64,000 nt of DNA, taken from Prolixibacter sp. NT017 (GTDB taxonomy: Bacteria > Bacteroidota > Bacteroidia > Bacteroidales > Prolixibacteraceae). The notes beneath the pieces are model-generated. The model was not told the origin of the DNA. It searched no databases and saw only the letters and a program-made list of their open reading frames with translations. The translations under genes and the position numbers were made by a program. The first letter of the stretch is position 1. Each line of letters starts with the position of its first letter. The DNA is taken from NCBI RefSeq assembly GCF_009617875.1, contig NZ_BLAV01000001.1, positions 3,410,001 to 3,474,000 of the forward strand. Direction: 5' to 3'. Of this stretch, positions 50,498-63,951 are shown one piece after another.

Positions 50498-51511
50498 ATG
50501 GCGGATCTCAAAACAACGTACATGGGGGTGCAGCTGAAAAACCCCATCATTCTTGGAGCCAGCAGTATTGTTGACAAGCTCGAAACCGTGAAAAAAATTG
50601 AACGGGCCGGAGTCGGCGCCATTGTTTACCGCTCCCTTTTCGAGGAGCAGATTCATCTCGAAGAAGCTCAGCTGGACGACATGCTCGGGGAATACGATGA
50701 AAGACATGCCGAGATGATCGATATTTTCCCGAACATTAAACATGCCGGGGCCAAAGAACATCTGTACCAGTTGAAGAAAACGGTCGACAATGTGGATGTT
50801 CCTGTTTTTGCCAGCTTGAATGCCATCTATGATTCTACCTGGGTAGAATATGCCAAACAACTGGAAGAAACCGGAATCGCTGGTTTGGAACTGAATTTTT
50901 ACAGTGTGCCGGTTGAGTTGGATAAAGCCGGGGCGAGTATTGAAGAACATCAGCTGGACATTCTGAAAAAAGTGAAAAAAGCGGTGAAAATTCCGGTCAG
51001 TGTGAAAATTTCATCCTTCTACAGCAATCCACTGAACTTTGTGCAGCAGCTCGACAAAGCAAAAACCGATGCCGTAGTTCTTTTCAACCGCTTCTTCCAA
51101 CCTGAAATTGATATTGAGACCGAAGAGTTCTATTACCCGTTCGATCTGACACATGAAAAAGACTACCAGATTACTTTGCGTTTTGCCGGTCTGCTTTACG
51201 GACATATTAAAAGTGACATTTGCGCCAGCCGTGGTATTTCCGACGGAAAAGATCTGATTAAGATGCTGCTGGCTGGTGCGACCTCCGTACAGGTTGTCAG
51301 CACAATATTCCGGAACAAAGCCGGAGCCATTACCAAAATGCTCGATATGCTCGAACAATGGATGGACGAAAAAGGGTATAAATCGGTTGACGAATTCCGC
51401 GGAAAGCTCGCCATGAAAAATCTGCAGGATCCTTACGCATACAAGCGGGCCCAGTACGTCGACATCCTGATGAACTCAACAGAGATAATCAAAAAATATC
51501 CAATGATTTAA
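50498..51511 (+). CDS. dihydroorotate-dehydrogenase-like flavoprotein
   Basis: 337 residues of the class 1 dihydroorotate dehydrogenase barrel family: MGVQLKNPIILGASSIVDKL, VPVFASLNAIYD, GIAGLELNFYSVP, KIPVSVKISSFYSNP (FMN-binding Lys) and ASRGISDGKDLIKMLLAGAT with VQVVSTIFRNKAG. The fold predicts an FMN enzyme, but this subgroup differs from PyrD and is common in anaerobes near ferredoxin and hydrogenase genes. Its substrate is unknown to me. It sits between two terminators, so it is monocistronic, 200 bases from the hydrogenase operon. Confidence 0.88.
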   Translation: MADLKTTYMGVQLKNPIILGASSIVDKLETVKKIERAGVGAIVYRSLFEEQIHLEEAQLDDMLGEYDERHAEMIDIFPNIKHAGAKEHLYQLKKTVDNVDVPVFASLNAIYDSTWVEYAKQLEETGIAGLELNFYSVPVELDKAGASIEEHQLDILKKVKKAVKIPVSVKISSFYSNPLNFVQQLDKAKTDAVVLFNRFFQPEIDIETEEFYYPFDLTHEKDYQITLRFAGLLYGHIKSDICASRGISDGKDLIKMLLAGATSVQVVSTIFRNKAGAITKMLDMLEQWMDEKGYKSVDEFRGKLAMKNLQDPYAYKRAQYVDILMNSTEIIKKYPMI

Positions 51512-51523
51512 TTCCCCAATTTC

Positions 51524-51548
51524 AACCCGGCAAACGCCGGGTTTTTTA
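51524..51548 (+). terminator. terminator after the dihydroorotate-dehydrogenase-like gene
   Basis: Perfect 8-bp arms AACCCGGC (51524-51531) and GCCGGGTT (51536-51543) with an AAAC loop, followed by T residues. It begins 13 bases after the stop. Confidence 0.93.
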
Positions 51549-51716: not shown

Positions 51717-52061
51717 ATGGAGCTTGCCCGTATAGTTGAGATAGTTAACGGCAGAGTCATCTGTGGAGAGGAAAAACTCAGAAGAACCGTCAAATATGGC
51801 TTCAGTTCTGACCTGATGAGTGATGTTCTGACCATAAACATCGAGAACTTGCTGTTGATGACCGGCCTCGCCAATCCTCAAACCATACGAACAGCCGAGA
51901 TGGCCGATATTGAATTTATTCTGTTTGTCAGGAATAAGAAAATCACCATGGAGATGATAAAACTGGCCAGGGAGAACGATATCGTACTCATTACAACCGG
52001 GTATTCACTCTTTCGGACCTCAGGTTTATTATTTAATGCAGGTTTAAAACCGGTGTACTGA
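51717..52061 (+). CDS. DRTGG-domain protein 1
   Basis: 114 residues forming a single DRTGG-type domain, cytoplasmic. The pattern runs MELARIVEIVNGRVICGEEK, then YGFSSDLMSDVLT, a middle TGLANPQTIRTAEMADIEFI and the end NDIVLITTGYSLFRTSGLLF. DRTGG domains occur in phosphotransacetylases and CBS proteins; their biochemical role is not settled. A paralogue is at 53972-54307. Such pairs accompany HydS-type sensory hydrogenases in clostridia and Thermotogae. Its TGA overlaps the next ATG (TGATG), so translation is coupled. Confidence 0.85.
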   Translation: MELARIVEIVNGRVICGEEKLRRTVKYGFSSDLMSDVLTINIENLLLMTGLANPQTIRTAEMADIEFILFVRNKKITMEMIKLARENDIVLITTGYSLFRTSGLLFNAGLKPVY

Positions 52062-52480
52062 TGAAACTGAATTTTCAGGTAGAAGGAGGCAATTTTGCCA
52101 AAGCAGGCGTTGCATCCAGCGAGGTGAAAAAGGTACTGAAGAAACTGGGAGTTCCTCCGATGATTATCCGGCGCATTGTTGTCGCCCTGTATGAAGCGGA
52201 AGTAAATATCGTCGCTCATGCGCAACAGGGCATCATCAGTGTCGATTTACATCACGATAAGGTGGAAATCGAACTGCGGGACAAAGGACCGGGAATTGGA
52301 GATATCTCCCAGGCAATGCAGGAAGGTTTTTCGACAGCATCAGAAGAAGTGCGCGCCATGGGATTTGGTGCCGGAATGGGATTACCCAACATTAAGAAAA
52401 ATGCAGATGAACTGAATATAGAGAGCAAGGTCGGTGAAGGAACCACGGTACACATTACTAATTATTTTGCCAAACCATGA
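52061..52480 (+). CDS. GHKL ATPase (anti-sigma/RsbW-like kinase) 1
   Basis: 139 residues, a lone HATPase_c domain. N-box VVALYEAEVNIVAHAQQG (Glu and Asn), G1 box LRDKGPGIGDI, G2 box MGFGAGMGLPNIKKNADEL, and VGEGTTVHI at the end. The Bergerat fold is complete, but no dimerisation/phosphoacceptor domain exists, as in RsbW-like serine kinases. It overlaps both neighbours by 1-4 bases, so it should be made in proportion to the HydS-like protein. A role as a protein kinase responding to that sensor is inference. Confidence 0.9.
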   Translation: MKLNFQVEGGNFAKAGVASSEVKKVLKKLGVPPMIIRRIVVALYEAEVNIVAHAQQGIISVDLHHDKVEIELRDKGPGIGDISQAMQEGFSTASEEVRAMGFGAGMGLPNIKKNADELNIESKVGEGTTVHITNYFAKP

Positions 52481-53889
52481 ATCAATCGAACCAATTGGAA
52501 CTACACCACGCTATCAAAATCGACGCGGATAAATGCCGGGCGTGCACGCATTGCCTGCAGGTGTGTCCTACCGAAGCCATCCGGATTCGGAACGGGAAGG
52601 CCACCATCATTCCGGGCCGGTGTGTCGATTGCGGCGAGTGCCACCGGGCGTGTCCTTACCAAGCTTTTTATGTGGAGCAAGACGATCTTTCACGCATATT
52701 CGATTACAAATACCGGGTCGCACTTTTTCCGGCCGTTTTCGTGAGTCAGTTCCCTGAAAATATTTCAGAAGAACAAATATATAGTGTACTGAAGCAAATT
52801 GGTTTCACCCACACGTGCGAAGTGGAACAGCCCATCTCGGTACTCATCGATTCCATTAAAGACTTTGCACAGAATGAATACGACAGCGAAAGTCCCATTA
52901 TTTCCTCATTCTGTCCGGCAACCGTTCGCCTGATCCAGGTAAAATATCCGGCACTGACTGAACATTTGGTTTTGCGGAACGCGCCGCATGATCTGGCGGC
53001 CTGGTATGTCAGACAACGGTTAGCCGAAGAAGGAATCGATCCATCGGATGCCGGCATTTTCTATATCACGCCGTGTGCCGCCAAAATTGCAGCAGTGAAA
53101 AGTCCCGTCGGCGAGAAAAAATCGATTGTTGATGGCATTATCAACATGAGCGAGATTTACAACCAGGTAATGGCAAAAGCAACCGGAGTCACCGGAAACT
53201 TTCATTCCTGCGATTGCCGCAATGAAATTTCCCGCGAAGGAATCCTCTGGAGTCTTCCGGAAGGAGAAAAAGCAGCGTTCGATGGCAAGTCACTCTCCGT
53301 TGACGGAATGCACAATGTTATCCGGATTTTGGAACGATTGGAAGACGGAGATCTTCAGGATATCGACTTTCTGGAGCTGCGGGCCTGCGAAGAAGGCTGC
53401 GCCGGCGGTATCATGATGACCAGTAACCGCTTCCTGACAGCCGATCGCCAGCACAAACGGGCCGAGAAATTTCCGGAAGCCAAATCATCCGCAGGCATGG
53501 AAGAACTAGCAGAGAAACTGCGTATCGCTTCGGTTCAGCCACGCCCGATGGTTCACCTGGACACCGACATGGAGAAAGCTTTCGCGAAAATGGAGAAAGC
53601 CCGTTCCATCATGTGTCACCTACCGGGAATTGATTGCGGTGCTTGTGGTGCTCCGTCCTGTTTGGCTCTGGCTGAAGATATGGTACGGCACGAAGCCCGG
53701 ATGACCGATTGCATTTATATACAGCAGCTGTGGCAGAAGGAAGGAAAAATATCGGCTGAAAAAGCTTTCCGTAATCTGGAAAAGAGATGGGGAGAAAACC
53801 GTTTCGATGTGGATTGCTCGAAACGAGGTGCAAAGAATGATAACGGATTTGGATTAATGAATGAAGGAGAAGATGCCGACTTGTACTAG
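52477..53889 (+). CDS. HydS-like putative sensory [FeFe] hydrogenase
   Basis: 470 residues. Two ferredoxin-type [4Fe-4S] sites (Cys20, 23, 26, 30; Cys49, 52, 55, 59) precede an H-cluster domain. All four predicted H-cluster ligands are kept: Cys146 in SSFCPAT, Cys200 in TPCAAK, and Cys304 and Cys308 in LRACEEGCAGG. The proton-relay Cys that precedes the first ligand in catalytic enzymes is Phe145 here, and the Met of MPC is Thr198. A C-terminal FeS domain (CHLPGIDCGACGAPSC, about 377-410) follows; the PAS domain of typical HydS proteins is absent. It is probably slow or non-catalytic, a redox or H2 sensor for the surrounding kinase/phosphatase genes. Confidence 0.9.
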   Translation: MNQSNQLELHHAIKIDADKCRACTHCLQVCPTEAIRIRNGKATIIPGRCVDCGECHRACPYQAFYVEQDDLSRIFDYKYRVALFPAVFVSQFPENISEEQIYSVLKQIGFTHTCEVEQPISVLIDSIKDFAQNEYDSESPIISSFCPATVRLIQVKYPALTEHLVLRNAPHDLAAWYVRQRLAEEGIDPSDAGIFYITPCAAKIAAVKSPVGEKKSIVDGIINMSEIYNQVMAKATGVTGNFHSCDCRNEISREGILWSLPEGEKAAFDGKSLSVDGMHNVIRILERLEDGDLQDIDFLELRACEEGCAGGIMMTSNRFLTADRQHKRAEKFPEAKSSAGMEELAEKLRIASVQPRPMVHLDTDMEKAFAKMEKARSIMCHLPGIDCGACGAPSCLALAEDMVRHEARMTDCIYIQQLWQKEGKISAEKAFRNLEKRWGENRFDVDCSKRGAKNDNGFGLMNEGEDADLY

Positions 53890-53971
53890 TTTTTATTGCA
53901 GAGTAAGATATGAGCTGATGCGGCAAGAAGCTGCAGAGAGAAAGAATCAAACCAAAAATAACCTGGATAGA

Positions 53972-54307
53972 ATGACAGTAAAAGATGTACAACAAGCCCT
54001 CGAACTAAAAGTCTTTGGCGGCGAAAAAGGGTTAAACAGTGACGTAACCGGAGGCTATGTATCCGACTTACTGAGCGATGTGATGGGAAATGCAACCGAA
54101 GGAATGGCATGGATCACGTTGCAAACGCACCTGAATGTGATGGCCATTGCATCGTTGAAGGATTTGTCCGTCGTTATTCTGGTTAACGGAAACAAACCGG
54201 AAGAGGATATGCTGGAGAAAGCCAACGAAGAAAATATTCCGGTACTGGGAACCAAACTTGGCACTTTCGAAACTGCCGGAAAACTTTACCAACTGTTAAA
54301 TTCCTGA
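53972..54307 (+). CDS. DRTGG-domain protein 2
   Basis: 111 residues from the ATG at 53972 (MTVKDVQQALELKVFGGEKG). The open frame extends back to 53861 inside the previous gene, but those 37 residues do not fit the family. It aligns with the first DRTGG protein across YVSDLLSDVMG, the middle THLNVMAIASLKDLSVVILV and the end NIPVLGTKLGTFETAGKLYQ. It is part of the sensory module, four bases before the PHP gene. Confidence 0.85.
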   Translation: MTVKDVQQALELKVFGGEKGLNSDVTGGYVSDLLSDVMGNATEGMAWITLQTHLNVMAIASLKDLSVVILVNGNKPEEDMLEKANEENIPVLGTKLGTFETAGKLYQLLNS

Positions 54308-54310
54308 GCC

Positions 54311-55036
54311 ATGAAATCATACCGGGCTGATCTACATATTCATTCTCTTCTTTCGCCTTGCGGAAGTCTGGACATGAGTCCGGCCCGGATTATTCGTGAA
54401 GCAAAAGAACGGAAGATTGACATCATCGCGGTAGCCGACCACAACTCGACGCGGCAAGCCGGATTGATAAAAAAGTTGGGGCAGGAAACGGGAATAACAG
54501 TGTTAACCGGAGCGGAAGTCAATACCCGCGAAGAAGTGCATTGTCTTTGCCTTTTCGGCGATGAAGAGGCAACCCGGATTTTTCAGGAATTCCTCGATGC
54601 CCGTTTACCGGAAGAGGAAAATGATGTGGTCATTTTTGGCGACCAGGTGGTAGTCGATAAAGACGAACAAATCGTTTACACGGAAGATCGTTTGCTGATT
54701 TCTGCTCTTCGTGCTGGCATCAAAGAGATTGAAACGCTGGTGCACAAGCTGAATGGAATTTTCATCCCGGCGCACATCGATCGACCTTACAGCGGCATTC
54801 TCGACCGTTTGGGATTCATTCCCGAAAACCTGGAATATGATGCACTGGAACTCTCCTACCGGATGCCGGAAACAGAAATTTGCGGACAGCATCCCGAATT
54901 GTGCGGAAAATATTTCCTCCGCTCATCGGATGCACATTACCCGAAAGACATTGGAAGGGCAACTACAACATTTGAGTTGGAAGAGAATTCATTTGAGGCC
55001 GTCAGGGCTTATTTGCGAAGCAAGTTAAACCAGTAG
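54311..55036 (+). CDS. PHP-domain phosphoesterase
   Basis: 241 residues with all PHP metal motifs: DLHIHSLLSPCGSLDM (HxH), AVADHNSTRQ (DH), LTGAEVNTREEVHCLCLF (Glu, His), FIPAHIDRP (His) and SSDAHYPKDIGR (D-x-H). This superfamily hydrolyses phosphate mono- or diesters with a trinuclear metal site, for example histidinol phosphate, 3',5'-nucleotides or phosphotyrosine. In this operon it may reverse phosphorylation by the GHKL ATPases or destroy a nucleotide messenger. Two bases separate it from the next gene. Confidence 0.9.
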   Translation: MKSYRADLHIHSLLSPCGSLDMSPARIIREAKERKIDIIAVADHNSTRQAGLIKKLGQETGITVLTGAEVNTREEVHCLCLFGDEEATRIFQEFLDARLPEEENDVVIFGDQVVVDKDEQIVYTEDRLLISALRAGIKEIETLVHKLNGIFIPAHIDRPYSGILDRLGFIPENLEYDALELSYRMPETEICGQHPELCGKYFLRSSDAHYPKDIGRATTTFELEENSFEAVRAYLRSKLNQ

Positions 55037-55038
55037 CG

Positions 55039-55590
55039 ATGAAAGAGCTTTCGTTACATATTCTCGATATCGTCCAGAATTCCATCCGCGCCGAATCGAC
55101 GCGAATCGAAATTACTATTGAGGATTTTGCACAGAAAAACGAATTCCGGATTCTTATCTGTGACAACGGGAAAGGAATGACATCGCAGGAAATGGAAAAA
55201 GCACTTGATCCATTCTACACATCGCGCACAACCAGAAAAGTCGGGCTTGGACTTCCGCTACTCAAACAGAATGCGGAACAAACCGGCGGGAAGCTGGTGC
55301 TTAGCTCATCGGTTGGAAATGGTTGCCGCGTGGAAGCTGTTTTAGTTAACAACCATATCGATCGGCAACCGATGGGCAACATCGCTGAGACACTGGTCCA
55401 ACTGTTTGCCTCCTATCCAAGCATTCGATTCAAATTCAATTATCTCACCGACCGTGGAGATTTCAACATCGATACAGACGAAGTAAAACAGATACTGGAA
55501 GACGTTCCGATAACCAATAGTGAAGTAAGAGAATTCTTAATCAATCATATTAGAGAAAACCTGAGAACGATTCAGGATCATAACCAATAG
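55039..55590 (+). CDS. GHKL ATPase 2 with C-terminal extension
   Basis: 183 residues. The HATPase domain (about 1-115) has N-box LHILDIVQNSIRAES, G1 DNGKGM, F-box DPFYTSRTTRKVG and G2 GLGLPLLKQNAEQTGG. It resembles the catalytic domain of histidine kinases more than RsbW, yet there is no DHp domain or phosphoacceptor helix. The last 65 residues (MGNIAETLVQLFASYPSIRF onwards) are an uncharacterised extension. It is part of the sensory module, immediately before the 2Fe-2S protein gene that begins the hydrogenase genes proper. Confidence 0.9.
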   Translation: MKELSLHILDIVQNSIRAESTRIEITIEDFAQKNEFRILICDNGKGMTSQEMEKALDPFYTSRTTRKVGLGLPLLKQNAEQTGGKLVLSSSVGNGCRVEAVLVNNHIDRQPMGNIAETLVQLFASYPSIRFKFNYLTDRGDFNIDTDEVKQILEDVPITNSEVREFLINHIRENLRTIQDHNQ

Positions 55591-55597
55591 ATCAATT

Positions 55598-55987
55598 ATG
55601 AGCAAAATCAAATCGTTAGAAGAGCTGCGTAAGTTACGTGAAGAGGTGCAAACCCGGATGAAACTTCGCGAAAACAGCGACAAATCAGATGACCTGGTGC
55701 GCATCAAGGTGGCCATGGCGACCTGCGGAATCGCTTCGGGAGCCCGCGAAACCATGCGTGTGCTGATTGAGCAACTCGATCAACGTGGAGTAGATGCTGT
55801 CGTTACGCAAACCGGATGTATGGGCTATTGCTATGCCGAACCCACTGTGGAAGTTACCCTTCCGGGGAAAGAACCCATTGTGTTTGGCGAAGTGAAAGAA
55901 GAACGTGCCCGGGAAATTATCGACAAGTATGTCGTGAATCAGGAATTAATCGACGGTATTATTCCAGTCAATCATCAGTCAATTTAA
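55598..55987 (+). CDS. thioredoxin-like [2Fe-2S] protein (HndB-like)
   Basis: 129 residues. A charged N-terminal helix (SLEELRKLREEVQTRMKLRE) precedes a thioredoxin-like ferredoxin fold with ATCGIASGA (Cys43) and QTGCMGYCYAEP (Cys74, Cys78). Only three Cys are in cluster positions, where a regular domain has four; relatives next to NADP-reducing hydrogenases (HndB) show the same pattern from memory. It probably relays electrons or assists assembly of the HydABC complex encoded next. Confidence 0.88.
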   Translation: MSKIKSLEELRKLREEVQTRMKLRENSDKSDDLVRIKVAMATCGIASGARETMRVLIEQLDQRGVDAVVTQTGCMGYCYAEPTVEVTLPGKEPIVFGEVKEERAREIIDKYVVNQELIDGIIPVNHQSI

Positions 55988-56017
55988 ACGTTTAATCGCT
56001 TTTCCAAAAACCTTGTT

Positions 56018-57811
56018 ATGACAGATTACAGAATGAACATCCTGGTATGTGGCGGAACAGGCTGCCGCTCATCCGAAGGTGCCACCCTTTACGATGAGTT
56101 GGTCTCGCTTCTCGCGGATAAAGGCCTCGAAAAAGAAATCCAGGTCGTTTCCACCGGTTGTTTCGGATTTTGTGAAAAAGGCCCGGTGGTGAAAATACTT
56201 CCCGACAATACTTTCTATGTTCAGGTACAGGCTGCCGATGCCCGGGAAATTATCGAGGAGCACATCATCAAAGGACGGAAAGTAGAGCATCTGCTTTACA
56301 CCGCTCCCGAAACCGGGAAAAAGGTATCCGATTCCAAGCACATGGATTTCTATAAAAAACAGGTTCGAATCGCCCTTCGGAACTGCGGCTTCATCAACCC
56401 GGAAAACATCGACGAGTACGTTGCCCGCGAAGGCTACGCCGCCATGGCTAAATGCCTTGGCGAAATGACTCCGGAACAGGTAATCAAGGAGATCAAAAAA
56501 GCTGGCTTGCGCGGACGCGGTGGTGCAGGTTTCCCTACCGGGACGAAATGGGAATTGACCCGCAAAAGTGAAGCAGACCAGAAATACGTGGTTTGTAACG
56601 CCGACGAAGGTGACCCGGGAGCTTTCATGGACCGCTCTATCCTCGAAGGCGATCCGCACTCGGTTATCGAAGCAATGGCCATTTGTGGTTATTGCATAGG
56701 TGCCGACAAAGGCTTGGTGTACATTCGTGCAGAATATCCGCTGGCCATAAAACGCCTAAAGATTGCCCTGGAACAGGCACGCAATTACGGCCTTCTTGGT
56801 GAGAATATCCTGAATACCGGTTTCAACTTCGAGATTGAACTTCGCTACGGGGCAGGCGCTTTCGTGTGTGGGGAGGAAACGGCTCTCATTCACTCCATGG
56901 AAGGAAAACGAGGCGAACCGACTTTCAAACCACCGTTTCCGGCTGAAAAAGGATATCTCGGCAAACCGACCAATGTGAACAACGTAGAAACATACGCCAA
57001 TATCCCTCCCATTATCAACAAAGGTTCCAAATGGTTTAGCGGCATCGGTACCGAAAAATCCAAAGGAACCAAGGTTTTTGCCTTAGCAGGAAAAATCAAC
57101 AATGTTGGGTTGATTGAGGTCCCGATGGGAACAACCCTTCGTGAAGTGATTTACGACATTGGTGGTGGTATCAAAGGTGGGAAAGAGTTCAAGGCAGTAC
57201 AAACCGGGGGTCCTTCGGGCGGCTGCCTGACCAAAAACTTCCTCGATACGCCTATCGACTACGAAAGTCTGACTGAAGCAGGCTCTATGATGGGTTCCGG
57301 TGGTATGATTGTGATGGACGAAGATGATTGTATGGTTTCCATCGCCAAATTCTACCTCGAATTTACGCTTGACGAATCGTGCGGAAAATGTAATCCGTGC
57401 CGAATCGGAAACAAACGGTTGTGGGAAATTCTGGACAAAATATCCAAGGGAAATGGAACGAAGGAAGATCTGAACCGGTTGAAACTCCTCAGCAACGTGG
57501 TAAAAGACGCGTCACTTTGCGGACTGGGACAAACCTCCCCCAACCCGATTTTGTCAACCATGGACAACTTTTGGGACGAATATCTGGCCCACGTGGAAGA
57601 CAAACGATGCCCTGCCGGTCAATGTAAGGCAATGATGCAATATGTCATCGATCCAAACAAATGTACCGGCTGTACACTCTGCTCGCGCATTTGTCCGGTT
57701 GCTGCAATTGAAGGTGAGCGCAAGCAAGCGCATGAAATCGATCCGGAGAAATGCATCAAGTGCGGTGCCTGTATGGAGAAATGTAAATTCGAAGCCATCT
57801 CAGTGGCCTGA
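56018..57811 (+). CDS. hydB: HydB, NuoF-like diaphorase subunit of the first trimeric hydrogenase
   Basis: 597 residues. N-terminal thioredoxin-like [2Fe-2S] domain (Cys11, 16, 48, 52); the NuoF core with GRGGAGFPTGTKW (FMN/NADH loop), CNADEGDPGAFMDR and GAFVCGEETALIHSMEGKRG; the [4Fe-4S] domain SCGKCNPCRIG with a later Cys in SLCGLGQT; and a C-terminal pair of [4Fe-4S] sites (CTGCTLCSRICP, CIKCGACMEKC). This full architecture is that of electron-bifurcating HydABC enzymes, where NAD(P)H and reduced ferredoxin are oxidised together to make H2, or the reverse. Operon position: after the HndB-like gene, before hydA. Confidence 0.95.
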   Translation: MTDYRMNILVCGGTGCRSSEGATLYDELVSLLADKGLEKEIQVVSTGCFGFCEKGPVVKILPDNTFYVQVQAADAREIIEEHIIKGRKVEHLLYTAPETGKKVSDSKHMDFYKKQVRIALRNCGFINPENIDEYVAREGYAAMAKCLGEMTPEQVIKEIKKAGLRGRGGAGFPTGTKWELTRKSEADQKYVVCNADEGDPGAFMDRSILEGDPHSVIEAMAICGYCIGADKGLVYIRAEYPLAIKRLKIALEQARNYGLLGENILNTGFNFEIELRYGAGAFVCGEETALIHSMEGKRGEPTFKPPFPAEKGYLGKPTNVNNVETYANIPPIINKGSKWFSGIGTEKSKGTKVFALAGKINNVGLIEVPMGTTLREVIYDIGGGIKGGKEFKAVQTGGPSGGCLTKNFLDTPIDYESLTEAGSMMGSGGMIVMDEDDCMVSIAKFYLEFTLDESCGKCNPCRIGNKRLWEILDKISKGNGTKEDLNRLKLLSNVVKDASLCGLGQTSPNPILSTMDNFWDEYLAHVEDKRCPAGQCKAMMQYVIDPNKCTGCTLCSRICPVAAIEGERKQAHEIDPEKCIKCGACMEKCKFEAISVA

Positions 57812-57838
57812 TTGACCAATCCGTAAATCATCTAAAAA

Positions 57839-59638
57839 ATGAAAATGGTAACATTAACCATCGATAATAAAACCGTTGAAGTTCCTAAAGGAACAACTGT
57901 TTTAGAGGCAGCAGCCAGAGTGGGCGTCGAAATTCCCACGCTCTGCCACATGAAACTGGACAACCTGGAAATTGAAAATAAACCCGGTGGCTGTCGTGTA
58001 TGTCTCGTCGAAATACAGGGCAGAAAAAACCTCGCACCTTCGTGTGTAACCGAGGCAACCGATGGAATGATTGTCAAATCGTCCTCCATTCGCGTGATGA
58101 ATACCCGCCGGACCATTGTCGAACTGATCCTGAGTGATCACCCCGCCGAATGTCTGACTTGTGCCAAATCGGGTAACTGCGATTTGCAGAGCCTCGCCAT
58201 CAAAATGGGTATCCGCGAACTGCACTTCTCGGGAGAGAAATCGGTTCACCGCGAAGACCAATCGCCGGCCATCATCCGCGACATGGACAAATGCATCATG
58301 TGCCGCCGCTGCGAAACCATGTGTAACGAAGTGCAAACCGTTGGCGTTCTTTCAGCAGTCAACCGCGGTTTCAACTCTGTTGTTTCACCGGCTTTTGAAC
58401 AGGACTTGCAGGATTCAGCTTGTACCTATTGCGGACAGTGTGTTGCTGTTTGTCCTGTAGGAGCACTGACCGAGCGTGACCAAACCGGAGCTGTTATCCG
58501 GGCTTTGTCCAATCCCGATAAAACCGTCGTAGTTCAAACTGCACCCGCTGTTCGTGCTGCGCTGGGAGAAGAATTCGGACTAGAAGCCGGTACGCTTGTA
58601 ACCGGAAAAATGGCCGCAGCGCTGCGTCGTTTGGGCTTCGACTATGTATTCGATACCGATTTTGCCGCCGACCTCACCATCATGGAGGAAGGAACTGAAT
58701 TGCTCGATCGGCTGACTCGTCACCTCAACGGCGATTCGACTGTGAAGCTTCCTATCCTGACTTCTTGTTGTCCGGCATGGGTGAAATTTATCGAGCACAA
58801 CTTCCCGTCACTACTCGACGTACCGTCGTCGGCCAAGTCTCCTCAACAGATGTTCGGTGCCGTTGCAAAGAATTACTTTGCTGAGAAACTGAATGTCGAC
58901 CGGAAGAAGCTGGTAGTGGTTTCCATCATGCCGTGCGTGGCTAAAAAGTATGAGCGTGGCCGCGATGAATTCGCCGTCGACGGAAATTCAGATGTGGATT
59001 TTGTACTCACAACCCGCGAACTTTCACATTTGATTAAGCTGGCCAACATCGACTTCCACACGCTTCCGGATGAAGAATTCGATCAGCCAATGGGTATGTC
59101 AACCGGAGCTTCCGTCATTTTCGGAACAACCGGTGGTGTAATCGAAGCAGCTGTTCGTACGGCATATGAGCTTTATACCAAAAAACCCCTTCCGAAAGTA
59201 GAATTTGAGGAATTGCGCGGTATGGAAGGTCTACGTCATGCCACCATCGATTTTGGTGGATTGCCTTTGCATATCGGTATTGCGCATGGTTTGGGGAATG
59301 CCCGTAAACTACTCGAAGAAATCGCTGCCGGAAGAAGTCAGTTCCATGCTATCGAAATCATGTCGTGTCCCGGTGGTTGTATCGGTGGTGGAGGACAACC
59401 ATTCCATCATGGAAAATCCGATATCCTGAAAAAACGCCAGCAGGCCATTTATCAGGAAGACCGGAATAAACCGATTCGCAAATCCCATGAAAATCCGTTC
59501 ATCTACCAGTTGTACGAAGAATATCTCGGTGAACCGATGAGTGAAAAAGCACATCATCTGTTGCACACCAAATATTTCGACCGTTCCACCGTATTTGAAC
59601 AGGACGGTAATGTATCTGAAACTGACGATAAAAATTAA
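57839..59638 (+). CDS. hydA: HydA, catalytic [FeFe] hydrogenase subunit of the first enzyme
   Basis: 599 residues. NuoG-like N-terminus: [2Fe-2S] domain (Cys36, 52, 55 and a later Cys), a His-Cys3 [4Fe-4S] site in HPAECLTCAKSGNC, and two [4Fe-4S] sites (CIMCRRCETMC, CTYCGQCVAVC). The H-cluster domain has complete motifs: TSCCPAW (proton-relay Cys310, ligand Cys311), MPCVAK (Cys366) and EIMSCPGGCIGGGGQ (Cys510, Cys514). A small-subunit-like C-terminus follows (KPIRKSHENP, YLGEPMSEKAHHLLHT). It makes or oxidises H2 with HydB and HydC. Confidence 0.97.
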   Translation: MKMVTLTIDNKTVEVPKGTTVLEAAARVGVEIPTLCHMKLDNLEIENKPGGCRVCLVEIQGRKNLAPSCVTEATDGMIVKSSSIRVMNTRRTIVELILSDHPAECLTCAKSGNCDLQSLAIKMGIRELHFSGEKSVHREDQSPAIIRDMDKCIMCRRCETMCNEVQTVGVLSAVNRGFNSVVSPAFEQDLQDSACTYCGQCVAVCPVGALTERDQTGAVIRALSNPDKTVVVQTAPAVRAALGEEFGLEAGTLVTGKMAAALRRLGFDYVFDTDFAADLTIMEEGTELLDRLTRHLNGDSTVKLPILTSCCPAWVKFIEHNFPSLLDVPSSAKSPQQMFGAVAKNYFAEKLNVDRKKLVVVSIMPCVAKKYERGRDEFAVDGNSDVDFVLTTRELSHLIKLANIDFHTLPDEEFDQPMGMSTGASVIFGTTGGVIEAAVRTAYELYTKKPLPKVEFEELRGMEGLRHATIDFGGLPLHIGIAHGLGNARKLLEEIAAGRSQFHAIEIMSCPGGCIGGGGQPFHHGKSDILKKRQQAIYQEDRNKPIRKSHENPFIYQLYEEYLGEPMSEKAHHLLHTKYFDRSTVFEQDGNVSETDDKN

Positions 59639-59644
59639 TTTGTC

Positions 59645-60175
59645 ATGGAAATAACCAGAGATTTGAAAACCCATAAAGTGCAATTGTCGGAGAATGCCAT
59701 TGCACTGGTCAAAAAGATATGTCGCCGGTTCAATTACCAGGAAGGCGAACTCATCAACATCCTTCACGCCGTGCAAAGCCAGTTTGGTTACCTGCCTGCA
59801 GAAATCCAGGAGCTGATCGCCAAAGAGCTGGACATTTCAGTGGCCAAGGTGTATGGTGTTGTAACGTTCTACTCGTTCTTTACCATGAAACCGAAAGGCA
59901 AATACCCGATTTCGCTTTGTATGGGTACCGCTTGTTACGTAAGGGGTGCTGAAAATATCCTGAACGAAATCAAACGGCAGCTTAGCATTGACGAGGGAGA
60001 GACCACTCCGGACGGGCTGTTTTCTCTCTCCAGTTTGCGCTGCGTTGGTGCCTGTGGACTTGCTCCGGTACTAATGGTTGGTGAAAAGGTGTACGGACGT
60101 GTAGCTCAGGCAGATGTACGGAAAATCATTTCGGAATATAAAGCCGGTTGCCTGACACATCCGACAAAAGAGTAA
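59645..60175 (+). CDS. hydC: HydC, NuoE-like [2Fe-2S] subunit of the first enzyme
   Basis: 176 residues. The helical N-terminus (EGELINILHAVQSQFGYLPA) and VAKVYGVVTFYSFF lead to a thioredoxin-like fold with the four cluster Cys at LCMGTACYV (Cys92, Cys97) and LRCVGACGLAP (Cys133, Cys137), the NuoE spacing. It passes electrons within HydABC. It is the last gene of the ten-gene operon, followed by a strong terminator. Confidence 0.95.
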   Translation: MEITRDLKTHKVQLSENAIALVKKICRRFNYQEGELINILHAVQSQFGYLPAEIQELIAKELDISVAKVYGVVTFYSFFTMKPKGKYPISLCMGTACYVRGAENILNEIKRQLSIDEGETTPDGLFSLSSLRCVGACGLAPVLMVGEKVYGRVAQADVRKIISEYKAGCLTHPTKE

Positions 60176-60208
60176 ATACACATATATTAAGGTCTGTATA
60201 TCAGACAG

Positions 60209-60238
60209 AACGGGTCTAAATAGACCCGTTTTTTTTTA
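60209..60238 (+). terminator. terminator of the first hydrogenase operon
   Basis: Arms AACGGGTC (60209-60216) and GACCCGTT (60223-60230), loop TAAATA, followed by a run of T. A smaller hairpin (GTCTG/CAGAC, about 60192-60206) stands just before it. Confidence 0.95.
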
Positions 60239-60450: not shown

Positions 60451-60915
60451 ATGGATCCAATCCAATCCTTAATTAAAGAGCTGGCGGTGAAACACGGCCG
60501 CAAGCGCGAAAGTCTGCTACCTGTACTTCAAGGAGTTGTAGAACAGGAACGTTACCTTTCGGAACATTCCATGATTGAGATCGCGCGGGAACTTGACCTG
60601 CCGGCAGCGGAAGTCTATGGAACAGCCACTTTTTATTCTTTCCTCGAACACCGGAAAATGGGCCGTTTCATCATCAGGATTTGCAAAACCATTTCCTGCT
60701 CGATGAAAGGGAAAAACCAGGTGCTTCTGGCCATTCAGGATATGCTCAAAATATCGACAGGCGAAACCACACCTGACGGCCGATTCTCCCTGGTTGAAAC
60801 CAACTGCCTTGGACTTTGTCACAAAGCCCCGGCCATGCTGATCAACGAGGAAGTGTATACCGACCTGACTCCGGAAAAAGTCCGTGAGATTCTGTCGGAT
60901 TACATGAAGAAGTAA
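60451..60915 (+). CDS. HydC2, NuoE-like [2Fe-2S] subunit of the second hydrogenase
   Basis: 154 residues, a NuoE-like thioredoxin fold. AAEVYGTATFYSF precedes the cluster Cys at RICKTISCS (Cys78, Cys83) and TNCLGLCHKAP (Cys119, Cys123). It is shorter than HydC at the N-terminus. Gene order in this operon is C-B-A, whereas the first operon is B-A-C, so the two were not made by a simple tandem duplication. Confidence 0.93.
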   Translation: MDPIQSLIKELAVKHGRKRESLLPVLQGVVEQERYLSEHSMIEIARELDLPAAEVYGTATFYSFLEHRKMGRFIIRICKTISCSMKGKNQVLLAIQDMLKISTGETTPDGRFSLVETNCLGLCHKAPAMLINEEVYTDLTPEKVREILSDYMKK

Positions 60916-60947
60916 CTTTTTCAAACCAAACCAAAAAATCAATCCAA

Positions 60948-62135
60948 ATGGCTGAATCATATCATCTGTTGAAACGAGCCGATTTCATTTTCCGGAATGA
61001 AAATGACTGGGAAGAAATTCTCACCAAAACCATTAAGCGCACACCTCAGGATATTATCAATGAGCTAATTAGCTCAGAGCTAAAAGGACGTGGCGGTGCG
61101 GGCTTCCCAACCGGCTTAAAGTGGAAAATTACAGCTGAAGCCAAATCAGCTGAAAAATATGTCATCTGTAACGCCGATGAAGGGGAACCGGGAACTTTTA
61201 AAGACCGGGAAATTCTCTCCAGGGTTCCCTACAAAGTACTCACGGCAATGGCTGTTTGCGCGCACATCATCGGTAGTAAAAAAGGCATCATATACCTTCG
61301 CGGTGAATATCATTCACTCAAAGAAGCACTGGAAAAAACCATTTCCGAATTTGAATACTATTGCAAGAAAATCAAACTCGATTTCTCGATTGAGGTGTTC
61401 ATGGGAAGCGGAGCCTACATTTGTGGCGAAGAAACCGCCTTGTTCGAATCACTCGAAGGACACCGCGGCGAACCACGAAATAAGCCTCCCTATCCGACCA
61501 TCAAAGGGTATATGGACAAGCCGACCGTTATCAACAATGTTGAGACGCTGGCTCACACCTTTACCATCTTTAAATACGGCGCCAAGAAGTTCTACGATTT
61601 GGGCGTTCAGTTCTCTCGCGGAACTAAACTCTTCTCTGTTTCGGGTGATACTCCCAAACCAGGCATCTACGAGCTGGAGTTAGGGATGAGCCTTCAGGAT
61701 TTCGTCAATGAATTCGGTGATGGCGATACCAAAGCCGTTCAGGTCGGTGGAGCTTCCGGATTTTTGGTACCCCGAAAAAAATTCCAGGAAACCGCTATCG
61801 GTTACCAGGGAAAACTGACGGGAATTTCCCTCCCGACCGGAGGATCGATGATGATCTACAATAGTTCGCGATCCATGTTTAATGTGCTGGATAATTACCT
61901 TGAATTTTTCCGCGAAGAATCGTGCGGACAGTGCACGCCATGCCGTGTAGGTTGTCAGCAACTCCTTATCGGAATTAAGGCGGTGAAACGCGGAGAGCGT
62001 CCGGCACAATACCTCGACAAATTGCTGAAGCTGACTGAAACCATGCAGTTGACAGCCAAATGTGGCTTAGGGCAGTCAGTCGCTAACTCGTTTGCATCTA
62101 TTGTCGAGAACTTCCGGGAAGAGATGATCTACTAA
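60948..62135 (+). CDS. HydB2, minimal NuoF-like subunit of the second hydrogenase
   Basis: 395 residues containing only the NuoF core and its [4Fe-4S] domain: GRGGAGFPTGLKW, CNADEGEPGTFKDREI, GAYICGEETALFESLEGHRG, SCGQCTPCRVG and the final cluster Cys in AKCGLGQS. It lacks both the N-terminal thioredoxin-like [2Fe-2S] domain and the two C-terminal ferredoxin sites present in HydB (56018-57811). The stop is followed directly by hydA2, so there is no sign of a frameshift. NAD(P)H and FMN binding should be retained. Confidence 0.93.
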   Translation: MAESYHLLKRADFIFRNENDWEEILTKTIKRTPQDIINELISSELKGRGGAGFPTGLKWKITAEAKSAEKYVICNADEGEPGTFKDREILSRVPYKVLTAMAVCAHIIGSKKGIIYLRGEYHSLKEALEKTISEFEYYCKKIKLDFSIEVFMGSGAYICGEETALFESLEGHRGEPRNKPPYPTIKGYMDKPTVINNVETLAHTFTIFKYGAKKFYDLGVQFSRGTKLFSVSGDTPKPGIYELELGMSLQDFVNEFGDGDTKAVQVGGASGFLVPRKKFQETAIGYQGKLTGISLPTGGSMMIYNSSRSMFNVLDNYLEFFREESCGQCTPCRVGCQQLLIGIKAVKRGERPAQYLDKLLKLTETMQLTAKCGLGQSVANSFASIVENFREEMIY

Positions 62136-62160
62136 TCGTGAACCAATCAAACTGTACATC

Positions 62161-63951
62161 ATGACTCAAAAAGTTCAAATAAATATCAATGGTTTCCCGG
62201 TAACAGTAAAACCCGGAACCACCATTTTGGAGGCTGCACGGAAAGCGAATGTCACTATTCCTACCTTGTGCTACCATAAAGACTTATGTGTGGCAGGTAA
62301 CTGCCGTGTTTGCGTGGTAGAAGTGGCCGGTCAGAAACGTCTGTCAGCAGCCTGTGCCACCCCTTGTGAAGATGGGATGGATATTCTGACCAATAGTCTG
62401 AAAGTAAGGAATTCCAGGAAACACATCATCGAGCTCCTGCTTTCGGAACACAACGCCGATTGTACCAAGTGTTACAAAAATGGCAAATGCGAGCTGCAAT
62501 CACTGGCATCAGAATACAAGATCATGACGCAGGATTTCATCGAACTCCTGCCGTGGAAGAACTACACCATCGACATGATCTCGCCCAGTATCATCAAAGA
62601 TGATAGTAAGTGTATCCGCTGTCAGCGCTGCGTGCGGACCTGTGCCGAACTTCAGGGCGTAAATGCATTGACCGTTGCTTACAAAGGCGATCATATGAAA
62701 ATCTCTACGTTCTTCGAAAAACCAATGAACGATGTGGTTTGTACCAACTGCGGACAATGTGTGAACCGTTGTCCTACCGGTGCCTTGGTTGAAAAGAACT
62801 ACGTGGAAGAAGTTTGGGATGCCATTTCTGATCCTAAAAAGCATGTGGTTGTTCAAACTGCCCCGGCTGTTCGTGTCGGATTGGGTGAAGACCTGGGATT
62901 CGAACCGGGTAGTCGTGTTACTGGCAAAATGGTCGCGGCCCTCAAACGTTTGGGCTTTGACTCGGTACTGGATACCGATTTTACCGCCGACCTAACCATC
63001 ATGGAAGAAGGTACCGAGCTGCTTACCCGACTGAAGAAAGCGCTTGTGGATAATGATAAGGAAGTGAAACTTCCGATGGCTACTTCGTGTTCTCCGGGAT
63101 GGATCAAGTACATCGAGCACATGTATCCCGAGTATTTGCCCAACCTCTCAACCTGTAAGTCGCCTCAACAGATGTTCGGAGCATTGGCAAAAACCTATTA
63201 TGCCAAAGCACGCAATCTCGATCCTGACAAAATCGTTTCAGTTTCCATCATGCCGTGTACAGCCAAGAAATTCGAAGCTGCCCGTTCGGAAATGCACGAC
63301 AGCGGCTACCGCGATGTGGACTACGTTCTCACTACCCGTGAACTTTCCATCATGATTAAACAGGCTGGCATCGATTTCATGCAGTTGGACGACATGGAGT
63401 TCGACCGCTTAATGGGAGAATCAACTGGTGCCGGTGCCATCTTCGGTGTAACCGGTGGTGTTATGGAAGCAGCCATTCGTACTGCATACGAACTGGTTAC
63501 CGGACGCCCCGTGCCATTTGAGAACCTGAACGTCACTCCCGTAAGAGGAATGGAAGGAGTCAGGGAAGCAAGCCTTAAAATTGAGAAACCGTTGAAAGAA
63601 TGGAAATTCCTCGATGGTGTTGAACTGCGTTGTGCTATTGCTCATGGTCTCATCAATGCAAAAACGGTGATGGATGCTGTAAAAGCAGGGAAAGCCAATT
63701 TCCACTTCCTGGAAGTGATGGCCTGTCCGGGCGGTTGCCTCGGCGGCGGTGGCCAGCCCATACCAACCAACTCTGAGATCAGGGAAAAACGCGCCAAAGC
63801 CATTTATGCAGAAGACTCAGGCAAACCGATCAGGAAATCGCACGAAAATCCGGAAGTACAAAAAATCTATAAGGATTTCCTTGGCGAACCACTTGGTGAA
63901 GTATCTCATCATCTGCTTCATACAACTTACACACCGCGGGAGCGCTTCTAA
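62161..63951 (+). CDS. HydA2, catalytic [FeFe] hydrogenase subunit of the second enzyme
   Basis: 596 residues, the same domain order as HydA: [2Fe-2S], His-Cys3 site in HNADCTKCYKNGKC, two [4Fe-4S] sites (CIRCQRCVRTC, CTNCGQCVNRC), H-cluster domain and small-subunit-like tail (KPIRKSHENP, GEVSHHLLHTTY). H-cluster motifs are TSCSPGW (Cys310, Ser311), MPCTAK (Cys366) and EVMACPGGCLGGGGQ (Cys522, Cys526). The Ser replaces a Cys kept in HydA. It probably forms a soluble NAD(P)H-linked trimer with HydB2 and HydC2. The 49 bases after its stop show no terminator before the window ends. Confidence 0.95.
   Translation: MTQKVQININGFPVTVKPGTTILEAARKANVTIPTLCYHKDLCVAGNCRVCVVEVAGQKRLSAACATPCEDGMDILTNSLKVRNSRKHIIELLLSEHNADCTKCYKNGKCELQSLASEYKIMTQDFIELLPWKNYTIDMISPSIIKDDSKCIRCQRCVRTCAELQGVNALTVAYKGDHMKISTFFEKPMNDVVCTNCGQCVNRCPTGALVEKNYVEEVWDAISDPKKHVVVQTAPAVRVGLGEDLGFEPGSRVTGKMVAALKRLGFDSVLDTDFTADLTIMEEGTELLTRLKKALVDNDKEVKLPMATSCSPGWIKYIEHMYPEYLPNLSTCKSPQQMFGALAKTYYAKARNLDPDKIVSVSIMPCTAKKFEAARSEMHDSGYRDVDYVLTTRELSIMIKQAGIDFMQLDDMEFDRLMGESTGAGAIFGVTGGVMEAAIRTAYELVTGRPVPFENLNVTPVRGMEGVREASLKIEKPLKEWKFLDGVELRCAIAHGLINAKTVMDAVKAGKANFHFLEVMACPGGCLGGGGQPIPTNSEIREKRAKAIYAEDSGKPIRKSHENPEVQKIYKDFLGEPLGEVSHHLLHTTYTPRERF

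Follow-up and report, generated by a model that had tools for sequence, protein, structure and literature searches.

What is the function of the six genes that precede the trimeric [FeFe] hydrogenase of Prolixibacter sp. NT017, and is a HydS-like hydrogenase the centre of this set? The genes lie in the 64,000-nucleotide stretch that was analysed as a whole (contig NZ_BLAV01000001.1, positions 3,410,001 to 3,474,000) and is called the window here. In it, a six-gene cassette, a gene for a small 2Fe-2S protein (T) and the hydrogenase genes HydABC form one apparent ten-gene operon (51717-60175), which runs on one strand with small gaps in the order d1, g1, HydS, d2, PHP, g2, T, HydB, HydA and HydC. 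Here d1 and d2 are DRTGG proteins, g1 and g2 are GHKL ATPases and PHP is a phosphoesterase. The open reading frames (ORFs) and Pfam domains agreed with the original prediction on the six genes, their order and places, and on their linkage to the trimeric hydrogenase. The cassette is very probably a regulatory module of HydABC. Judged from the sequences, its steadiest pair is a DRTGG protein and the SpoIIAB-like putative kinase g1, and HydS is a dispensable input rather than the hub.

Conservation of the cassette

The neighbourhood survey comprised 80 loci (the best 80 of 540 confirmed), 100 further stretches and the window, all annotated with family models built here. One of these 181 (L202) fell below the HydS threshold and nine near-copies (at least 97% identical) were removed, which left 171 loci. 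Genes were counted within set distances, and contig ends make the counts lower bounds. The run d1-g1-HydS-d2-PHP was contiguous in 136/171 loci and all six cassette genes in 119/171, or 103/171 when T and HydB were included. g1 was present in 169 loci and adjoins HydS in 169/171, and the other genes were found in 162 (d1), 149 (d2), 148 (PHP) and 134 (g2) loci; d2 goes with PHP across the loci. The survey that the original prediction had proposed found the six families together. Loci from several phyla share the cassette order, with the whole set in Bacillota and most of it in Spirochaetota. A further set comprised 40 loci, which were picked from 85 listed hits above 200 bits in a sample around the Clostridia genome of L101 (G714) and may overlap the 171: g1 was found in 39, d1 in 34 (fused to g1 in 3), d2 in 36, PHP in 35 and g2 in 33. 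In several genomes, d1-g1-HydS and d2-PHP-g2 stand apart, and d1-g1-HydS can stand away from HydABC.

Genome-wide co-occurrence was followed in one sample of 393 Bacteroidales-order genomes, with a HydS threshold of >200 bits and searches that each score few candidates per genome. Group D HydS was found in 113 genomes, g1 in 120 and PHP in 117. All 113 genomes with group D HydS had g1, against 7/280 of the others, and 110/113 had PHP, also against 7/280 (Fisher p < 1e-83 per pair tested over the 393 genomes, a statistic that ignores relatedness). Fourteen genomes were selected for a lack of PHP at the HydS locus or in the PHP search; it was found elsewhere in 11 of them, and in the other three (G363, G439 and G470) no PHP was found elsewhere in the genome. 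By gene content, the six-gene set is conserved well beyond chance.

The components of the cassette

The sequence of the window HydS shows the features of a sensory-type hydrogenase of group D (M2e), as given in the available part of PMC8163306: a C-terminal Cx2Cx4Cx16C motif, no PAS domain, absence of the proton-transfer Cys (C299) and replacement of M353 by Ser or Thr. In this 470-residue protein the motif is formed by C387, C390, C395 and C412 (spacings 2, 4 and 16), and a Pfam scan found no PAS domain. The C299 position is F145 (Phe in 127 of the 171 loci, Tyr in 25, Ala in 15, others in 4) and the M353 position is T198 (T in 147, S in 23, A in 1). All eight N-terminal cluster Cys are present in two 4Fe4S motifs, and the H-cluster Cys (C146, C200, C304 and C308) are kept in 170-171 of the 171 loci. 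The HydS of Prolixibacter denitrificans (L029) is 97% identical to that of the window. As far as the excerpted text of PMC8163306 goes, TamHydS of Thermoanaerobacter mathranii likewise has no PAS domain, two N-terminal 4Fe4S motifs, the same C-terminal motif, a lost proton-transfer Cys, Thr for M353 and a gene upstream of a trimeric hydrogenase. It differs at the M497 position, which is Leu in TamHydS and Arg in the window and 142/171 loci (Leu 12, others 17).

H2 sensing by group D hydrogenases is put forward as a proposal in that portion of PMC8163306, and it is likely that HydS is a sensor. In the excerpts available, HydDB describes C1 as 'histidine kinase-linked (putative)' and C3 as 'phosphatase-linked (putative)' and files under C1 a hydrogenase from Petrimonas that is close to hnd, and a group-D-like gene and a histidine kinase are reported upstream of the A1 hydrogenase of Thermoanaerobacter. 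In our tree, which did not include TamHydS, 20 longer HydS taken as group C formed a clade (support 0.993) and 77 short HydS lay in one clade with a support of only 0.144; the root is unsafe because group A was not monophyletic.

Four genomes from three genera (G327, G383, G440 and G443) carry d1-g1-d2-PHP-g2 in order without HydS, and no group D HydS above 200 bits was found elsewhere in them. The HydS-less loci L242, L243 and L244 go on into T and the genes for HydB, HydA and HydC (with only a weak HydA hit, 250 bits, in L243), and L241 stops at a contig edge after g2. These cassettes have intact motifs in g1, d2 and PHP. The view that the module is built around HydS had therefore to be given up. 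At other places in G327 and G440, a HydS-like hydrogenase is encoded as a fusion with HisKA and HATPase (L245 4062-6107; L246 5743-7815). A sensory-type hydrogenase fused to HisKA and HATPase in one chain was also observed in L008 (697-2730). In a fifth genome, G628, which belongs to the family of the window, HydS is strongly diverged and its pocket is altered. The HydS of L202 (9673-11055, reverse strand), from a genus of this family other than that of the window, shows P147N, K203E and E300R near the H-cluster site, and the rest of its cassette is kept. A loss of H-cluster Cys in L202 was considered and dropped; the alignment puts the Cys in place, which indicates a diverged pocket and not a proven loss.

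The DRTGG proteins match Pfam PF07085 at cut-off and are modelled with the DRTGG fold, and in each of them a single Ser and a single Thr are invariant. In d1, D32, S35 and T49 are invariant (162/162 sequences), and R72 and K74 are kept in 158/162 and 160/162; in d2, S72, T86 and N92 are invariant (149/149). The g1 residues E45, N49, D74, G76 and G78 have a frequency of 1.00 (two decimals) in 169 sequences. Its modelled structure predicts a GHKL kinase fold with an ATP site and a Glu aligned with the N-box Glu of SpoIIAB, which we take to be the Glu expected of a kinase. By sequence g1 is closest to SpoIIAB (TIGR01925, 58.8 bits against a cut-off of 135, so below the curated family score), and the RsbW models scored below cut-off too. 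On balance, we lean slightly towards g1 being a protein kinase. A Pfam scan of the ten operon proteins detected neither HisKA nor receiver, STAS or sigma domains. A two-component histidine kinase would bring a HisKA/DHp phospho-acceptor and a cognate receiver, and both are absent from these proteins, as had been noted originally for the phosphoacceptor of the GHKL proteins and for receivers and sigma factors.

Fusions of d1 and g1 occur in a clade of Bacillota. They were seen in L093, L200 and L201, and at least 119 further proteins among the matches listed aligned over 85-100% of the L093 fusion. In four Spirochaetota genomes (L287, L288, L290 and L291) a CBS-CBS-g1 protein precedes d2 and PHP, and no hydrogenase gene was found near it within the stretches read; the same switch may therefore serve other outputs. 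Either DRTGG or a CBS pair can thus stand before g1.

In PHP, H9, H11, D43, H44, E69, H77, H155, D207 and H209 have a frequency of 1.00 in 148 sequences; these are presumably the metal ligands, and the metal-binding set is complete. No PDB sequence matched PHP at E 0.001. Near the metal-site motif, C17 (54359-54361) is an invariant Cys (147/147 sequences with a residue there) and a possible redox handle. g2 looks like MutL, not like a histidine kinase, and in Bacillota it is encoded inside the hydrogenase gene run, usually with HydC between PHP and g2. Of the two kinase-like ATPases claimed originally, the SpoIIAB-like g1 was retained and the MutL-like g2 was not. A PHP-g2 fusion in L081 and L160 was rejected, and the L081 junction has an ambiguous base (X) where the stop belongs.

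Proposed switch and its alternatives

As a whole, the best explanation is a HydS-g1-DRTGG phospho-switch that controls HydABC, which we put forward tentatively and at somewhat less than an even chance. In this switch, HydS would read H2 or the redox state through its H-cluster, and its state would pass via the C-terminal FeS cluster to g1, encoded immediately upstream, HydS being one exchangeable input. g1 would be a Ser/Thr kinase of the SpoIIAB type that is restrained or switched by d1, which would also sense a nucleotide. The modified proteins would be the DRTGG proteins themselves, at Ser35 of d1 and Ser72 of d2; that the invariant Ser is the phosphosite is a suggestion with more doubt attached. 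PHP, paired with d2, would remove the mark, although its role as eraser is rather unlikely, and a SpoIIE-type phosphatase may do so too in some lineages. The MutL-like ATPase g2 would couple the switch to HydABC; this target and the direction of control we infer. A self-contained H2/redox phospho-switch on the hydrogenase had been predicted, and it survives in the conserved cassette and the SpoIIAB-like g1, without HydS as hub or g2 as kinase.

Of the 171 loci, 19 contain a SpoIIE-type gene, where only 56 of the 171 have at least 8 kb of upstream sequence for this count. Ten of these 19 have the gene in divergent orientation about 3 kb upstream, beside a PAS protein where examined, and 7 of the 19 also hold a longer, group C-like HydS. 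The genome of the window has a single SpoIIE match, away from the cassette. These neighbours fit a Ser/Thr phospho-switch, but they are far from universal. The label 'PAS-type' for the longer HydS was replaced by group C-like, as six scanned proteins had HisKA and HATPase (three), PAS (two) or neither (one).

On our best reading, the working mode of the cassette would be most like that of the SpoIIAB and SiaABC systems, whose roles serve here as analogy. With SpoIIAB/RsbW it shares the g1 fold, the ATP site, the N-box Glu and a SpoIIE-type phosphatase gene near some loci. It differs in that no STAS or sigma domain is found among the ten operon proteins (a genome-wide search was not made) and in that the usual partner of the cassette kinase is a DRTGG protein, sometimes fused. 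SiaABC(D) of Pseudomonas aeruginosa has another small protein, another output and no hydrogenase, and it is a working analogy, not a membership. In CBS-pyrophosphatases, the available part of the literature describes CBS and DRTGG domains as one adenine-nucleotide-responsive insert (CBS-DRTGG-CBS), whereas here DRTGG stands alone or fused to the kinase, with no pyrophosphatase. The group C-like sensory hydrogenases and hfsABCD also bring together a sensory-type hydrogenase and a gene for a Ser phosphatase (PMC11837493, in the part available), but their HydS is longer, and no d1 or g1 was found in 21 short loci with longer HydS (L008-L028, about 1.5 kb each side). Partner switching with DRTGG in place of STAS, a Ser mark erased by PHP, HydS as a plug-in and an NAD-linked hydrogenase instead of transcription as output would be a novel combination, which we regard as rather unlikely. 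The open full-text literature searched, with incomplete coverage that makes an earlier mention possible, mentioned the parts and did not yield a description of the cassette; for DRTGG together with hydrogenase it gave only an unrelated match.

Several observations weigh against the phospho-switch. Since four genomes keep the cassette without HydS, HydS is not the only input. Regular absence of the ATPases or PHP was named by the original prediction as counter-evidence; loci with such gaps are L330 (Bacillota-type), which is HydS-d2-T-C-B-A without g1 or PHP in a genome with a second HydS hit, and L200 and L201, which have a d1-g1 fusion and HydS without PHP and g2 and in whose genomes PHP was not found. 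In the Spirochaetota stretches read, no g2 was seen, and the HydS locus and the d2-PHP locus both lie away from HydABC. No SpoIIE gene is present in the stretch of the window or of L029. R72 and K74 of d1 would also suit anionic-ligand binding, and the CBS pair in the fusion place of d1 (Spirochaetota) makes a ligand-sensing role of d1 more likely than that of a substrate. Mean-field direct coupling analysis (up to 162 paired loci, effective sequence number 60-132, HydS left out) separated no protein pair and gave no usable covariation signal between proteins at this depth.

The main rival explanation dispenses with protein phosphorylation and sees a nucleotide-gated allosteric module, in which an adenine nucleotide or a similar anion would be the ligand of d1 and d2, PHP would hydrolyse a nucleotide messenger, and g1 and g2 would be ATP-driven conformational switches on HydS and HydABC. 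It is possible, if on the unlikely side: the Glu that g1 keeps at the SpoIIAB N-box position is presumably a kinase feature, and the SpoIIE-type genes suggest phospho-Ser/Thr. It is improbable that the genes encode assembly, repair or quality-control factors for the FeS clusters or H-cluster of the hydrogenase and have no part in signalling. The MutL-like g2 within the Bacillota hydrogenase run and the survival of the cassette beside HydABC without HydS would suit such factors, whereas HydABC enzymes are reportedly produced without the cassette genes, and no assembly role is known for DRTGG, PHP or a SpoIIAB-like kinase. The location of d1-g1-HydS away from HydABC also argues against such factors, as does TamHydS, which was produced in E. 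coli and became active with the synthetic cofactor according to the accessible part of PMC8163306.

An anti-sigma or two-component output, in which g1 would release or phosphorylate a distant transcription factor, has a similarly slim chance. g1 is nearest to SpoIIAB by sequence and fold, a receiver-histidine-kinase gene precedes the HydS-less cassette L242, and Rex-type genes lie in six loci; however, no sigma, STAS or receiver domain is encoded in the operon of the window, its genome has no match to the Rex N-terminal family, and sigma partners of the SpoIIAB/RsbW kind are, to our knowledge, not expected in Bacteroidota. That the genes are functionally independent and share the operon by chance or co-expression only is scarcely credible. 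The two sub-units lie apart in several genomes, but when split they are for the most part found in the same genome, fusions of d1 and g1 exist, and independence is already disfavoured by the co-occurrence in the 393 genomes.

Operon boundaries, neighbouring genes and significance

The coordinates are collected in Table 1. The terminator-like sites come from a pattern scan whose total number was not above that in shuffles, so they are weak evidence. d2 probably starts at Met38, because in relatives the d2 ORF, counted from stop to stop, has a median length of 121 codons; this start leaves an 82-nucleotide gap after HydS and not a 29-nucleotide overlap. The overlaps or gaps of a few bases described originally therefore hold at most junctions, with HydS-d2 as the probable exception.

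Table 1. Features of the operon and its borders in the window
Feature	Position	Strand	Basis
Terminator-like hairpin between DHOD-like gene and cassette	51524..51543	+	Pattern scan
d1, DRTGG protein, 114 aa	51717..52061	+	ORF, Pfam
g1, SpoIIAB/RsbW-like GHKL ATPase, 139 aa	52061..52480	+	ORF, Pfam HATPase_c_2
HydS, group D (M2e)-type [FeFe] hydrogenase, 470 aa	52477..53889	+	ORF, Pfam 2x4Fe4S + Fe_hyd_lg_C + FeS (PF04060)
d2, second DRTGG protein	53972..54307 (ORF open from 53861)	+	ORF, Pfam; start inferred
PHP phosphoesterase, 241 aa	54311..55036	+	ORF, Pfam
g2, MutL/GyrB-like GHKL ATPase with C-terminal extension, 183 aa	55039..55590	+	ORF, Pfam HATPase_c
T, small 2Fe-2S ferredoxin-like protein of hydrogenase operon	55598..55987	+	Family scores below cut-off
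HydB, NADH-binding flavoprotein subunit (Nuo51 FMN domain)	56018..57811	+	ORF, Pfam, order in relatives
HydA, catalytic [FeFe] hydrogenase subunit	57839..59638	+	NCBIfam group A6, 905.8 bits, cut-off 765
HydC, NuoE-like subunit (2Fe-2S_thioredx)	59645..60175	+	ORF, Pfam, order in relatives
Terminator-like hairpin closing operon	60207..60232	+	Pattern scan

Upstream of the operon, a DHOD-like protein (PRK07565 family, 50498-51511) is encoded as its own unit. Its gene was rejected as a cassette member; it lies apart in L031, L077 and L079, and here the first terminator-like site stands between. A second NuoE-NuoF-HydA set (60451-63951) follows directly downstream after the closing terminator-like site, and NuoE-NuoF-HydA-type genes are found instead upstream of d1 in some relatives. 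A gene for an HdrA-like FAD/FeS protein lies just upstream of the cassette in L198 (11062-11928, reverse strand) and L199, two loci of the same phylum (Pfam for L198 only). The Rex-type genes are in L241 (4522-5211), L174, L191, L093, L066 and L108, at distances reaching about 9 kb; Rex as a general regulator was rejected on their presence in these six cassette loci only and on the genome search given above.

The cassette gives group D hydrogenase signalling a concrete candidate partner in the SpoIIAB-like kinase, present in every sampled Bacteroidales-order genome with group D HydS (113/113). It also offers natural fusions, two invariant Ser residues and natural HydS-less versions as controls. 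If HydABC is the output, the cassette would be a post-translational H2/redox brake on a main hydrogenase of rumen, gut and digester bacteria.

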